A stretch of DNA of 36,364 nucleotides from a virus. Made by a program: the position numbers and the translations under genes. The stretch spans positions 1 through 36,364 of the IMG/VR virus record IMGVR_UViG_3300009124_000042; one strand, given 5' to 3'. The notes beneath the pieces were generated by a model. The model did not search any database. It saw only the letters and a list, made by a program, of their open reading frames with translations, and was not told the DNA's origin. Every line of letters begins with the position of its first letter. The stretch's first letter is position 1. This document shows, piece after piece, positions 15,422-25,623 of this stretch.

Positions 15422-15440
15422 GCCCCCTCCAGTGGAAATG
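15422..15440 (+). repeat. Copy of the dispersed CAGTGGAAA motif
   Basis: CCCCCTCCAGTGGAAATG is the leftmost full copy of the motif family found through the early region. It is intergenic, upstream of the minus-strand cassette, and oriented on the plus strand like all others. Confidence 0.7.
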
Positions 15441-15973: not shown

Positions 15974-16020
15974 AAAAAACCCACACAAGGGCGGGCTTAA
16001 TGTTTTAGTTTATGTGGGGT
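15974..16020 (-). terminator. Rho-independent terminator of the 496-aa gene
   Basis: Reading the minus strand after the stop at 16029, CCCACA (16018-16013) pairs with TGTGGG (15985-15980), and a run of six T follows. The loop is long (27 nt) and contains a GC-rich segment. The element would end transcription of the cassette before it reaches the late promoter region. Confidence 0.65.
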
Positions 16021-16028
16021 TGCTTATG

Positions 16029-17519
16029 TCATGCTGCTGCAGAGAATAGATCCAATTGATTGTCCACAACTATCATGCCTTGCATTGGGCAATCGTGTAG
16101 TTCTAACCAAGGCTTCAAAACATAAACCCTTTCAAGGTTTTCTATGTGTCTCCCTTCGCCCTCCATGCCGTTACGGTCAAAGCTTAGGTTGTAAAACCTA
16201 TGACGGGTTCTCCATACTATAGACTTCTTAGACGTTACTAGCCAATGACCACTTTCTATTGCTTGGTCATGCGTTATATGCGCCGTTGTTGGTAGTTCTG
16301 CCTTTTCATCAATAGAATAAACATCACCATCTATATCTGATGTAAACCATGTGTCGTTTTCATCACTCACCAAAAACCATTCGTCAGAATATTCTGAGTA
16401 AACCGTTTCATCTATGTGAGCATAGTTGCCGCAAGTTGTGTGAACAATATCGCCCTCATTATTCACGCAATGGTCACATATTAAACCTTCAAATCCTATT
16501 ACCTCATTGCCATTATGATTGGGTTCATACTCATCACAACCCTCACAATAAAAGAATTGATCATGGAAACAATCTTCGCAATAGGTACCATCTTGAGCAT
16601 GATGCATGTCATATTCACTTAAACCCGTGTTACAACTTTCGCAATGGTATTCGTAGTCACTAATTACGCCACTTGTAGTAGTTAATTCTAAATCGCCGTA
16701 CTTAGATATTTTAAGCTTATCGCCTAAGTCTTTAGCGCTCGAGTAATTGTCAAAATACGGCGCTATAAGCTCGTCCGAATTATGATTCTCTATTCTGAGT
16801 AGTTCAGCATTTATCCAACTTGCTTTATCGGGTTGCTCGCAAGCTTGCTTTCGCTTGGCTATTTCAGCCTCAAGCATATCGGCTGCCAAGTTGCTATTTG
16901 TATAAATAGGTGCGTTAGCATAACGACCATTGCGTGTACAAATAACGGCACGTGCCAATAGTTGCTCTTGGCTATTTTCTATCCATACAATTTCAAAATC
17001 GCCTGAACCATATATTTCAGTTGGATGACAAATTAAATGGTCAAAACTATAGCGCATACAACTTGCCGCTAATGACTTGCGAGAACAACCTAATCTTGGA
17101 TCTGATGCGCTCGCTTGTTTCATTGTGTAAACCCGTGCAAAGTCTTTACGATTCTTTGAGGATTTAAAAACTAAACCTTGAGTCGCCAAGAAATAGGTTT
17201 CTTTAAACCATATCGCAAAAGCTTCAAAGTCTACACTTGATCCAATAGGTAAAATTTTACGCAATATCTTAGCAGGTTTTCCTGATGTTCTTTTGCCCTT
17301 TTCCAAATCATCTGCTGACAAGTAAACTGACATTAATCGGTTGTCTTTATCATCAGGTTTAGGTGATAGCCAAATTAAATAGCTAAACGCTATTGATCTA
17401 TCGTCAGTTAATGGCCGCACTATATGGTCTAATTTACTAAGCAAGTCACGATCAAGATTTGTATCATTAGTTGCTAGTGATGATTTAAATTCTGCTGTTT
17501 TGTCTTCAAAGAAACACAT
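16029..17519 (-). CDS. Zinc-finger protein with C-terminal beta-clamp-binding motif
   Basis: I do not recognise a named family. The 496-aa product has an N-terminal domain without motifs I can name (1-285). A Cys-rich segment (293-363) carries CESC, CEDC, CEGC and CDHC pairs at 293/296, 314/317, 325/328 and 348/351, like LIM or treble-clef zinc fingers. A third domain ends with DNQLDLFSAAA. QLDLF (488-492) is an exact match to the QL[SD]LF motif that binds the bacterial DNA polymerase sliding clamp (DnaN). A GAGGGA site precedes the ATG. With its own terminator and upstream repeats it looks like a separately regulated cassette. It may act on host or phage replication; that is inference. Confidence 0.7.
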   Translation of the reverse strand: MCFFEDKTAEFKSSLATNDTNLDRDLLSKLDHIVRPLTDDRSIAFSYLIWLSPKPDDKDNRLMSVYLSADDLEKGKRTSGKPAKILRKILPIGSSVDFEAFAIWFKETYFLATQGLVFKSSKNRKDFARVYTMKQASASDPRLGCSRKSLAASCMRYSFDHLICHPTEIYGSGDFEIVWIENSQEQLLARAVICTRNGRYANAPIYTNSNLAADMLEAEIAKRKQACEQPDKASWINAELLRIENHNSDELIAPYFDNYSSAKDLGDKLKISKYGDLELTTTSGVISDYEYHCESCNTGLSEYDMHHAQDGTYCEDCFHDQFFYCEGCDEYEPNHNGNEVIGFEGLICDHCVNNEGDIVHTTCGNYAHIDETVYSEYSDEWFLVSDENDTWFTSDIDGDVYSIDEKAELPTTAHITHDQAIESGHWLVTSKKSIVWRTRHRFYNLSFDRNGMEGEGRHIENLERVYVLKPWLELHDCPMQGMIVVDNQLDLFSAAA

Positions 17520-17740: not shown

Positions 17741-18085
17741 ACAACCTAAGCTTTGCCCGTTCTCTTTTCAATAGTTGCGAGCCATTTTACTATTCAAGGT
17801 TGTAGACTTTATTTTATACACGTTTAAGGCGAACTGGTGATTTTTTCAACTACAGGTTGTACGCCTGGATTTATACACTTTTAAGGCGAGTAACAAAAAA
17901 TATAGTTTAGGGGTTGAACTATACAACCGGAAGGTATAGATAGTTTAGAGGTTGAACGATACAACCTAAAAATGTTTCTGCGGTGCAGCATACACGTTAC
18001 AACCTAAGGTTGTGGCGAGTGATTTTTGTAACCACAACCTATAGGCGAGGAGAATATGCCATTGTATACACAACCTAAAAGCGAG
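17741..18085. promoter_or_regulatory. ACAACCTA repeat cluster upstream of the cassette
   Basis: About eight copies of ACAACCTA or its complement occur in 345 bp. They include a near-perfect palindrome ACAACCTAAGGTTGT (17999-18013) and two 28-bp near-identical units (about 17901-17928 and 17939-17966), each with GGTTG and CAACC arms. Two copies are followed by GCGAG: CACAACCTATAGGCGAG at 18033-18049 and ACACAACCTAAAAGCGAG at 18068-18085. The cluster lies between the minus-strand cassette and the plus-strand early block and looks like a multi-site operator or iteron region. No gene is supported in 17711-18449. Confidence 0.6.
17797..17889 (-). promoter_or_regulatory. Two composite repeats with TATAAA / DnaA-like boxes
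   Basis: AGGTTGTA, then 8 nt, then a 20-mer TTTATACAC-N-TTTAAGGCGA occur at 17797-17832 and again at 17854-17889, 57 bp apart, with one mismatch in the 20-mer. On the minus strand each gives TATAAA, a possible -10 box for the 55-aa and 496-aa genes, with TACAACCT about 8 nt downstream as an operator. On the plus strand TTATACACG and TTATACACT each match the DnaA box TTATNCACA at 8 of 9 positions. The two readings are alternatives. Confidence 0.45.
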
Positions 18086-18134: not shown

Positions 18135-18224
18135 ACCCCCACCGATGGAAAATGACCCCACCAGTGGAAAATGACCGTAGACCCCCCACAGTGGAAATGC
18201 GGAGCCACACCCCCGCAGTGGAAA
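18135..18224 (+). repeat. Tandem array of four dispersed-motif copies
   Basis: Four copies of the CCCC-N2-CRRTGGAAA motif lie in 90 bp, with TGGAAA at 18146, 18165, 18192 and 18219 (spacings 19, 27 and 27). The last two share the flank TGGAAATGCGGAG. Two more copies follow at about 18352-18366 and 18394-18409. All lie upstream of the early block. A 72-codon ORF (18056-18274) crosses the array; its Pro/Val/Glu/Met repeats come from the motif, so I do not call it a gene. Confidence 0.75.
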
Positions 18225-18259
18225 TGCGGAGCATTGAAGAAATTAAGAGCCAAGATTTC

Positions 18260-18292
18260 TACGGTCTGAACTAACTTTTTTACGGTCTGAAC
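18260..18292 (+). repeat. Direct repeat TACGGTCTGAAC
   Basis: The 12-mer TACGGTCTGAAC occurs at 18260-18271 and 18281-18292, exactly 21 bp (two helical turns) apart, each after a T-rich stretch. The spacing suits binding of a dimeric regulator on one DNA face upstream of the early block. Confidence 0.45.
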
Positions 18293-18390
18293 AAATAAAT
18301 TACTAACAAGCGTCACAAAAGTGCCGTTAGACGTAGTATATAAGAGTGATACCCCTACAGTGGAAATTAATAATTATTTTGTAGTCACCC

Positions 18391-18416: not shown

Positions 18417-18449
18417 ATGTACATTAACAGCAACAACTATGGAGATTAT

Positions 18450-19373
18450 ATGACAACAACACAAACTTATATCGAGATGTTATCTTACATGCGACCAGAG
18501 GGTGCCAAAGCTCAACGCAAGTTCTGTAACAGATTCCTACGACCTATCTTTGGCAATCCTGACAACCGTGGCAATTACATCTTACGTGTAGGTAACAACC
18601 CTACCATTGCCTTCATGTCACATCACGACACAGTTCACACTCATGGCGGTAGACAGAAAGTAGTTGTCGGCTCAGATAACTTTGTCACTACTACACAAAA
18701 CTGCTTAGGCGCTGACTGTACTACAGGCATCTACATTATGATGCGTATGATAGAGGCTGGTGTAGAAGGCTTATACATCGTACATGCCGCAGAAGAAGTT
18801 GGCTGTCGTGGCTCAGGTTACATTGTGCAGCACACCCCAGAGGTAGTTGACGGTATCCAAGCCGCTATCAGTTTTGACCGCTATGGTTACAACTCAATTA
18901 TTACTCACCAGTCAGGGGTTCGTACATGTTCAGAAGAGTTCGCAGACAGCATCGCAAGCATCCTAGATCTAGGCTACAGCCAAGACAGTGGCGGCTCGTA
19001 CACAGACAGTAACGAGTACAGAGGTATCATCCCTGAGTGTACCAACTTATCTGTAGGTTACTTCAATCAACATGCCAAGTCAGAGCATCAAGACCTAGAG
19101 TTCATGGAGACTTTATCAGATGCTTGTATCAATGCCGATTGGTCTAAGCTTGTAATAGTTCGTGACCCAACTGACAAGGATGACTTCTGGTCAGATGCAT
19201 TCTGGTCTCAAGATGACCGCTACTATCCCTACGCTGATGACATTGCTGTAGATGTCAGCTTAGAAAAAGTTATTGCAGATCACCCAAAAAGTGTAGCTTT
19301 GCTATTGCAATCGTATGGTTATGATGCTAAAGGTTTACTCACAGACTTAGGACGCATCAGGGAAGGATACTAA
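18450..19373 (+). CDS. M20/M28/M42-like zinc metallopeptidase
   Basis: I start at ATG 18450 (MTTTQTYIEML), preceded by GGAG; an ATG at 18417 lacks a ribosome-binding site. The 307-aa product has the metal-site layout of di-zinc aminopeptidases and deacylases: H58-x-D60 in SHHDTVH, bridging D89 in LGADCTTG, catalytic and metal E115/E116 in HAAEEVGCRGSGY, D143 in SFDRYGY, and H208 in SVGYFNQHAKSEHQD. The residue after D89 is Cys, where GADD is more usual. No signal peptide is seen, so it should act in the cytoplasm. It is the first gene of the early block. A substrate cannot be inferred; roles in host takeover or peptide scavenging are speculation. Confidence 0.75.
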   Translation: MTTTQTYIEMLSYMRPEGAKAQRKFCNRFLRPIFGNPDNRGNYILRVGNNPTIAFMSHHDTVHTHGGRQKVVVGSDNFVTTTQNCLGADCTTGIYIMMRMIEAGVEGLYIVHAAEEVGCRGSGYIVQHTPEVVDGIQAAISFDRYGYNSIITHQSGVRTCSEEFADSIASILDLGYSQDSGGSYTDSNEYRGIIPECTNLSVGYFNQHAKSEHQDLEFMETLSDACINADWSKLVIVRDPTDKDDFWSDAFWSQDDRYYPYADDIAVDVSLEKVIADHPKSVALLLQSYGYDAKGLLTDLGRIREGY

Positions 19374-23266: not shown

Positions 23267-24841
23267 ATGAATACAGATGTACATGATAACGTGAGAGATC
23301 AACCGTGTCCCTATGTGGACTGTGGTTCATCAGATGCTTTTAACTATAACACTAGAGGCTTTGGTAAGTGCTTCTCTTGTGGGAGTAGTTATCCTTCTAG
23401 GAAGGCAACCTTTGATTGGGCTAATGAAAAGTATCCCGTCAGTGGAAATACGACCTCAGAGAGCTTAAGAGAGGCTCAGGATGGTGGTAGTTATACAGCT
23501 ATGCGAGGTATATCAGAACGCACTATGGAGCAGTATGACGTTCTTACATATCCTAACGGTACTCAAAACTACGTGTACCCCAGCGGGGGAATAAAAACCA
23601 GGAATCTTAAGGAGAAGGATTTCTATGCAAGCAAAGGGTTTAAGACTGACGAGTTGTTCGGTATGAACTTCTTTACTGCTGGCTGCTCTAATGTCTTAAC
23701 GATAACAGAGGGTGAGGTAGATGCCATGTCTGCTTACCAGATGTTAAGCTCTAGGGATACTTACCTCAATCCTGTAGTTTCTCTACCATCAGCTACCCCC
23801 TCCAAGGCACTTTGGGAGAAGTGTAAGCCTTACCTAGATAGCTTCCAGAAGATTATCTTGTCTGTAGATAATGATGAGGCTGGCAACGGTATTGCCGCAA
23901 AGATCGCTAAGATGTTTCCTAACAAGGTGTATCGTGTCTCTCACAATAAGTATAAGGACGCTAATGACTTCTTGACCGCTGGTGCAACAACAGAGTTTAA
24001 GAATGCTTGGTTCAACTCCTCTAAGTATGTACCTGACAATATCTTCAATACTACTGAGCAGTTCCTTAACTTGTACCATGACACTCCAGAACACCAGTAC
24101 GTTCCTACAGGTATTGAGGCTTTAGATGAGAAAATCTTAGGTCTCATGCAAGGTCACTTCACAGTTATCAAGGCACCTACAGGTATAGGTAAGACAGAGG
24201 TAATGCGGTACTTAGAATATAACATGCTCAAGCGTAAGGTTCCTATTGCTACATGGCACCTAGAGGAAACTAAGTTACGTTCTTTGCTTGGGCTTGTGTC
24301 TTATGAAGCTAAGGACAATCTTACACGTAGGGATCTTATTGAAGAGTCTGGCTCAGAGGAAGAGGTTATCAAAGCTATTGAGAGCTTAACCAAAGATGAG
24401 TTACTATATCAATTCTATCTTGAGGAGAACCAAGGGGCTGATGATCTATGTGATCAAATACGTTTCTTTAGTCAGGCTTGCGGATGTAAGTTTATATTCT
24501 TCGAGCCGATACAGGATGTAGTTACTGGACATTCAGAGGAGAGTAAGGAACAACAGCTTGCTGACTTATCGGTTAGATTATCTAAGCTTGCAGCAGACCT
24601 TAACGTAGGTATTGTAACTATTGCTCACACCAATGAGTATGGAGATCCTAAGTATTGCAAGATGATTGGTCAGAGGGCTTCTGTAGTCTTAGACTTAGAA
24701 AGAGACAAGGAAGCTGACACATTAGAAGAGAGGAATACTACATTGATTACGGTACAAAAAAACCGACCCTGTTCCATCGAAGGCAAGGCCGGTAAGCTGA
24801 GATTCAGCACTGATACGTTTATGTTAAGAGAGGTACTTTAA
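23267..24841 (+). CDS. T7 gp4-like DNA primase-helicase
   Basis: The 524-aa protein primes and unwinds DNA at the phage fork. An N-terminal zinc ribbon has Cys14, 19, 35 and 38 (CPYVDC and CFSC). TOPRIM primase motifs follow: ITEGEVDAMSAY (about 145-156) and SVDNDEAGNG (about 197-206). The RecA-like helicase domain begins near 275, with Walker A APTGIGKT (about 303-310), Walker B-like FIFFEPIQDV, a GIVTIAHTNEYGDP stretch, and QKNRPCSIEG near the C-terminus. AAGGAG precedes the ATG. Length and order match the T7 gp4/Twinkle family. A dispersed-motif copy lies in the linker after the zinc domain (23434-23450). Confidence 0.9.
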   Translation: MNTDVHDNVRDQPCPYVDCGSSDAFNYNTRGFGKCFSCGSSYPSRKATFDWANEKYPVSGNTTSESLREAQDGGSYTAMRGISERTMEQYDVLTYPNGTQNYVYPSGGIKTRNLKEKDFYASKGFKTDELFGMNFFTAGCSNVLTITEGEVDAMSAYQMLSSRDTYLNPVVSLPSATPSKALWEKCKPYLDSFQKIILSVDNDEAGNGIAAKIAKMFPNKVYRVSHNKYKDANDFLTAGATTEFKNAWFNSSKYVPDNIFNTTEQFLNLYHDTPEHQYVPTGIEALDEKILGLMQGHFTVIKAPTGIGKTEVMRYLEYNMLKRKVPIATWHLEETKLRSLLGLVSYEAKDNLTRRDLIEESGSEEEVIKAIESLTKDELLYQFYLEENQGADDLCDQIRFFSQACGCKFIFFEPIQDVVTGHSEESKEQQLADLSVRLSKLAADLNVGIVTIAHTNEYGDPKYCKMIGQRASVVLDLERDKEADTLEERNTTLITVQKNRPCSIEGKAGKLRFSTDTFMLREVL

Positions 24842-25623
24842 TGATAATATCTTGGTGGAGTGCGGGTGTTACAAGTGCAGTTGCAACTAAGCTTGCTATC
24901 CAAGAGTTTGGTGATGAAGTTAAGCCTATCTATTTTGGCATTGACTCTGCACATAGTGACAACGCTAGGTTTAAAGAACAATGTGAAGAGTGGTATGGTT
25001 GTGAAATAATAACTGAACGTGCGCCAGAAAAGTACAAAGATCAATTTGATGTCATAAGTAAAGACAAGTATGTTAATGGTCCAGCTGGGGCTAGGTGTAC
25101 TCTTGTTCTAAAGAAGCGTGTTCGTCAGAGGTTAGAAAAGGAGCTTGATTATAGAGGTCAGATCTTTGGTTTTGAGTACAGTAAGAAGGAGGTCAACAGA
25201 GCCATACGTTTCAAGGAACAATATCCAGACGCTAAACCTTTCTTCCCTCTGATAGAAAAGAGAATGACTAAACCTGAGTGTCTATACTTCTTACAGGAGG
25301 CTAATATAGAAGTTCCAACCATGTATAAGTTAGGCTACAAAAACAATAACTGTATTGGTTGTGTTAAAGGTGGCGCAGGGTACTGGAATAAGATCAGAGT
25401 GGACTTTCCCGAACACTTCGATAGGATGGCAAAGGTTGAAAGGGAGGTAGGTAACTCTTGTTTACGAGGGGTCTTCTTAGATGAGCTTGACCCTCAAAAG
25501 GGACACAAACAAAAAATAGTCATGCCTGACTGTGGTAACTTCTGTGACATAGAGTTTGAGGAGTTAGATCATCCGCAGCTAGATATGATGCTTGAGACAC
25601 CAGAATTAATGAGAGGAATATAA
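24841..25623 (+). CDS. PP-loop ATPase, PAPS-reductase-like
   Basis: The 260-aa protein belongs to the adenine nucleotide alpha hydrolase/PAPS reductase superfamily. It starts with the PP-loop WWSAGVTSAVATKLA (S7-A-G-V-T-S12, where SGGxTS is common) and a following FGIDSAHSDN strand. A GPAGARCTLVLKKR block (about 80-93) and Cys-rich NNCIGCVKGGAGYWNKI are also present, plus a C-terminal CGNFCDIEFEEL. Relatives activate substrates by adenylation in sulfur assimilation, tRNA thiolation or DNA phosphorothioation (DndC). Start and stop adjoin the neighbouring replication genes. No Dnd or sulfur-pathway partners are in the window, so the substrate is unknown. Confidence 0.75.
   Translation: MIISWWSAGVTSAVATKLAIQEFGDEVKPIYFGIDSAHSDNARFKEQCEEWYGCEIITERAPEKYKDQFDVISKDKYVNGPAGARCTLVLKKRVRQRLEKELDYRGQIFGFEYSKKEVNRAIRFKEQYPDAKPFFPLIEKRMTKPECLYFLQEANIEVPTMYKLGYKNNNCIGCVKGGAGYWNKIRVDFPEHFDRMAKVEREVGNSCLRGVFLDELDPQKGHKQKIVMPDCGNFCDIEFEELDHPQLDMMLETPELMRGI

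Follow-up and report, generated by a model that had tools for sequence, protein, structure and literature searches.

ORF X, a zinc protein encoded in the 36,364-nucleotide stretch of viral DNA analysed here (the window, a virus record of 36 kb), ends in a peptide that matches the consensus for binding to the bacterial sliding clamp DnaN. With moderate confidence, and judging from sequence, we regard it as a phage-encoded protein docking on the DnaN of its host via this C-terminal peptide, most likely so as to disturb the replisome of the host or to redirect it. Docking of the tail on a clamp is the strongly supported part of this proposal as far as sequences can tell; that ORF X actually binds DnaN, which host is concerned and that the host is shut off is what we infer from it. 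ORF X does not appear to represent a categorically new system but would be a ligand for the canonical clamp pocket on a previously unstudied phage protein. A phage protein with the strongest known clamp-binding peptide, and with natural swaps between penta- and hexapeptide, would offer a handle on the takeover of host replication by marine lytic phages, and it would provide the first lead on a large unstudied pair of phage genes (KP34 gp10-gp11 type).

The gene occupies positions 16029..17519 on the minus strand, with an ATG start at 17519 and the stop codon at 16029-16031, and encodes 496 residues in a frame that is conserved in homologues. The initial annotation had correctly delimited this gene and gave its coordinates without a strand; plus-strand coding at 16029-17519 was ruled out as that strand is full of stops. 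A terminator-like stem-loop (15977..15998, minus strand) follows directly, although it is weak when taken alone and the number of such sites, 2 found versus 2.7 expected, is that of chance. The protein ends in ...IVVDNQLDLFSAAA, where QLDLF takes up residues 488-492 (16044..16058, minus strand) and only SAAA follows. The motif had accordingly been placed near the C-terminus, its distance of "six residues from the end" being a loose description of the four residues that come after it. QLDLF is indeed the consensus DnaN-binding peptide (PMC12309361, PMC11139829), with an affinity of about 7 nM in the context of E. coli Pol III alpha (PMC12309361). In shuffled versions of the ORF X protein, QL[SDE]LF arises anywhere in 7.5e-4 of shuffles and within the last 15 residues in 1.5e-5, and among the ORFs of at least 40 codons scanned in the window ORF X is the only one with QL[SDEN]LF.

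Relatives of ORF X were collected from marine viral contigs in several scans, and at 31-90% identity they retain a clamp-type tail with one degenerate case, QPMLL in L091. The tail reads QLDLF in the window and in ten relatives (L001, L003, L005, L010, L026, L027, L030, L080, L085, L086), QLELF in three (L002, L022, L024), QLGLPL, an Hda-type hexapeptide, in five (L004, L006-L009), QIELAL in L089 and QLELPI in L093/L069. Close relatives (85-92% identity) carry QLDLF, QLELF or QLGLPL, the C-terminus of a second clade (44-48% identity) is NRQL[DE]LFETEES, and the remaining relatives at 31-48% identity show QLDLF, QIELAL, QLELPI or the degenerate QPMLL. When 16 tails are aligned on Q, every one of them keeps this residue and the second L, and F alternates with P-L, A-L or P-I. 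This alternation fits the published rule for clamp ligands, Q-phi-x-[LM]-[FL] or Q-phi-x-[LM]-x-[FL] (PMC13254535), the final I of L093 and the P of L091 lying just outside it. Loss of the motif from close homologues had been raised as a concern, and the QLDLF string is in fact gone from the five relatives with QLGLPL; the hexapeptide of the Hda type, however, binds the same clamp pocket as QLDLF. The exchange of QLDLF and QLGLPL is one between two known classes of clamp ligands (PMC13254535, PMC12309361), and together with the conservation it constitutes strong sequence evidence that clamp binding is under selection. In a tree, the tails switch from one string to another several times within a single group, outside of which the sequences devoid of the motif fall, although several of the deep branches are long. 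ORF X combines conservation in homologues with a motif of ligand form at a tip of low predicted confidence.

An AlphaFold model from a 22-row alignment (pLDDT 83.4, pTM 0.53) has values below 50 for the last six residues, which puts the motif at a flexible C-terminal tip of the predicted structure and speaks against burial, a further concern of the initial annotation. The four CxxC pairs noted in that annotation (C293/296, C314/317, C325/328 and C348/351; 16467..16643, minus strand) may form two LIM-like or treble-clef-like zinc sites between residues 293 and 351, and all their cysteines are invariant in an alignment with ten homologues down to 33% identity. The region gives weak LIM matches by sequence and by fold and resembles tandem LIM-like knuckles, so that of the two roles proposed for it, nucleic-acid or protein binding, the latter is as likely as the former. 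LIM domains are spaced as CX2CX16-23HX2CX2CX2CX16-21CX2(C/H/D). Membership in this family was rejected, since 7 residues, not 2, separate the second CxxC of ORF X from the third. The family core (residues 140-275; 16695..17102, minus strand) comprises the elements KSL-ASCM, HP..IYG-GD, AR, IYT, PYxD and D.G, possibly in a GNAT-like fold, with S153-C154-M155 and R190 invariant. Single-sequence searches of Pfam, PHROG, NCBIfam and PDB with ORF X returned no informative family, and scans of genome contigs, sensitive to fairly close relatives only, detected no cellular homologue.

The nearest isolate to the virus of the window is Roseobacter phage CRP-6 (portal 84%, DNA polymerase 66% identity), a podovirus infecting an RCA roseobacter (PMC6918029). 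The window encodes a primase/helicase, a PolA-type polymerase, an exonuclease, a ribonucleotide reductase, a thymidylate synthase and a sigma-like protein; neither a sliding clamp nor an RNA polymerase was recognised among the ORFs scanned, and the polymerase of the phage itself carries no clamp-binding motif. These observations agree with the annotated replisome that makes no use of a clamp, and for the same reasons the partner of ORF X would be the clamp of the host. A gene for a phosphoadenosine phosphosulfate reductase-like protein (phrog_424, 24841-25620) lies between those for primase/helicase and DNA polymerase.

ORF X belongs to a widespread uncharacterised phage family, the kin of KP34 gp10, phrog_13313 and phrog_6980, with which it shares the core SCM...GD...R...Y...PYxD..G by profile and fold matches. 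The initial view that no described family has its layout does not hold for this core; it does hold in that the family is uncharacterised and the tail is confined to a marine clade. The distant relatives, in Bradyrhizobium phages and of the KP34 gp10 type, have 15-25% identity. Among such homologues are those in Rhizobium phage Pasto and Bradyrhizobium phage BDU-MI-1, and a deeper profile reaches gp10 of Klebsiella phage KP34 (E=2e-16) and gp30 of Vibrio KF1 (1e-10), neither of which was part of the profile. The core is common to these four and the clamp tail is absent from them. Strong fold matches among predicted viral proteins include uncharacterised ones from Klebsiella KpV48, Vibrio DE17, Pectobacterium Nobby and CB5 and Caulobacter Lullwater. 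Marine relatives keep the tail, whereas distant relatives keep the core without it; the tail is therefore a feature of the marine clade that, by sequence comparison, some members of an older family have gained or others have lost. Since relatives of no more than 25% identity (L013, L014, L039, L040, L095, L096) lack it and the QPMLL of L091 is non-canonical, the basic job of the family should be independent of the clamp.

Divergent from ORF X lies a gene for an M28-like metallopeptidase (phrog_4191, E=1e-77; 18417..19373, plus strand), which is linked to X-family genes in most relatives: the two adjoin each other in the window and in all marine contigs that leave space for both, as well as in Pasto, BDU-MI-1, CX5, KP34 and KF1, Lullwater being the exception. 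In CRP-6 neither a relative of ORF X nor the peptidase gene was found, and GP88 (PF17338) is encoded near the place of ORF X. The two genes accordingly make up an accessory module, kept across phages while CRP-6 lacks both, and the function of ORF X is dispensable in this phage group. The phrog_4191 peptidase was matched in about 370 phage records, mostly from Klebsiella, Pectobacterium and Vibrio phages, and often adjoins an X-family gene where examined. Compared with the clade of the window, ORF X is inverted relative to its neighbours in L022-L030 with the linkage kept, so that one clade has it directed toward the terminase genes and the other has it facing away from them.

Between ORF X and the peptidase gene, an array of the repeat CCCCNNCNGTGGAAA extends over 18137..18366 on the plus strand, upstream of the peptidase gene and near a switch in GC skew and gene direction. 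Further copies lie at 15424, 21058, 23434, 26121, 26707, 34595 and 34620; with up to 1 mismatch the window contains 12 matches versus 0.05 expected, and irrespective of gene direction each of them is on the plus strand. Most marine relatives have the array too, and no exact match is listed for CRP-6; it is a candidate for an origin, an operator or a promoter element. The intergenic region at 17785-18078 contains more direct repeats, namely 48-nt and 27-nt pairs and copies of TACAACCTAA.

We propose that the QLDLF tail would fit the canonical hydrophobic pocket of the host clamp and concentrate ORF X, whose body may combine two zinc knuckles with a phage domain of old origin (the "SCM" core, perhaps with a GNAT-like fold), on loaded host clamps. 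Bound there, it could compete with host polymerases and repair factors and/or present an activity of its own, perhaps together with the peptidase. Host DNA synthesis would be shut down or redirected while the PolA-type replisome copies phage DNA. That the replisome is interfered with or redirected we infer by analogy with phage inhibitors of DnaN (PMC11139829, PMC3594737).

Rather unlikely, in our judgement, is recruitment instead of sabotage, with the host clamp serving ORF X as a mobile platform on phage DNA, for example so that phage genes are transcribed or processed in step with replication, in the way T4 gp33/gp55 work with the T4 clamp gp45. The T4 proteins have the same layout, C-terminal clamp-binding motifs on divergent linkers (PMC2988020), the phage of the window encodes a sigma-like protein, and ORF X adjoins the strand-biased repeat array near the switch in gene direction and GC skew; yet no similarity of ORF X to gp33/gp55 or sigma was found, the phage has no recognised clamp, and host clamps would need to be loaded or stolen by a PolA replisome. 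It appears very improbable that the tail has no clamp partner and merely forms a C-terminal strand of the structure or resembles a clamp ligand by chance. The residues directly before the motif (I/V-I/V-N/D-N/R) include conserved hydrophobics and a strand is predicted at 481-485, which makes a structural role possible for part of this block, and a relaxed pattern including the hexapeptide occurs in 0-7% of shuffled 30-residue tails. On the other hand, the motif recurs in seven divergent lineages with interchange of penta- and hexapeptide, the residues behind it vary freely over a length of 0 to about 19, the tip has low pLDDT, and changes in the Leu/Phe codons of QL[DE]LF tails are synonymous only. 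Its conservation in relatives makes a chance origin of QLDLF very unlikely.

A reading that starts from the body of the protein is improbable as well: ORF X could be a GNAT-fold enzyme resembling acyl- or aminoacyl-transferases that modifies proteins together with the M28 exopeptidase, the marine tail directing it to replisome proteins. Nearly all of the best PDB fold matches to the model are GNAT-type enzymes (FemX, VipF, GCN5, L/F-transferase, ATE1) and LIM fingers, with probabilities up to 0.96, the linkage to the peptidase holds across very different phages and the core has its invariant residues. All PDB matches have E-values of 0.045 or worse, however, and the pTM is low; moreover, comparison of ORF X with Pfam and PDB profiles gave no hit to a GNAT family, no PDB chain was matched by a profile built from the core alone, and inspection by eye did not reveal the acetyl-CoA loop signature. 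We give equally little credence to the fuller version in which a GNAT-like zinc protein and the exopeptidase make up a protein-modification module that gained a clamp tail in marine roseophage relatives and acts on the host replisome.

The preferred reading, docking on host DnaN, sets ORF X beside several known systems. With bacterial beta-clamp ligands it shares the short motif classes, among them PolC QLSLF, in which the motif is likewise C-terminal, the tight ligand Hda QLSLPL (PMC12309361) and QFKLPL, by which alphaproteobacterial HdaA from Caulobacter binds DnaN (PMC3836487). Penta- and hexapeptide forms interchange among ORF X homologues, and the body of ORF X is unrelated to these ligands and phage-encoded. 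The examined kin of KP34 gp10 (phrog_13313, phrog_6980) have a homologous core by profile and fold and the phrog_4191 peptidase as the next gene; unlike ORF X, to which they are at most about 25% similar, they lack a C-terminal clamp motif and mostly have fewer zinc cysteines. T4 gp33/gp55 also present a C-terminal clamp epitope on a divergent linker, but their clamp is the phage-encoded gp45 and they bind RNA polymerase; homology to ORF X was not found. A search of open-licence papers turned up no phage protein in which a clamp motif binds the pocket; those attacks of phages on DnaN that are described there use other surfaces. N4 gp8 of E. coli phage N4 attacks the clamp machinery of the host at the clamp-loader subunit HolA (PMC3594737). 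The DnaN inhibitors gp168 of Staphylococcus phage Twort and gp240 of G1 are phage proteins aimed at host DnaN, as proposed for ORF X; compared by description, Twort gp168 blocks the DNA channel and not the peptide pocket (PMC11139829), whereas ORF X carries the motif for the pocket.
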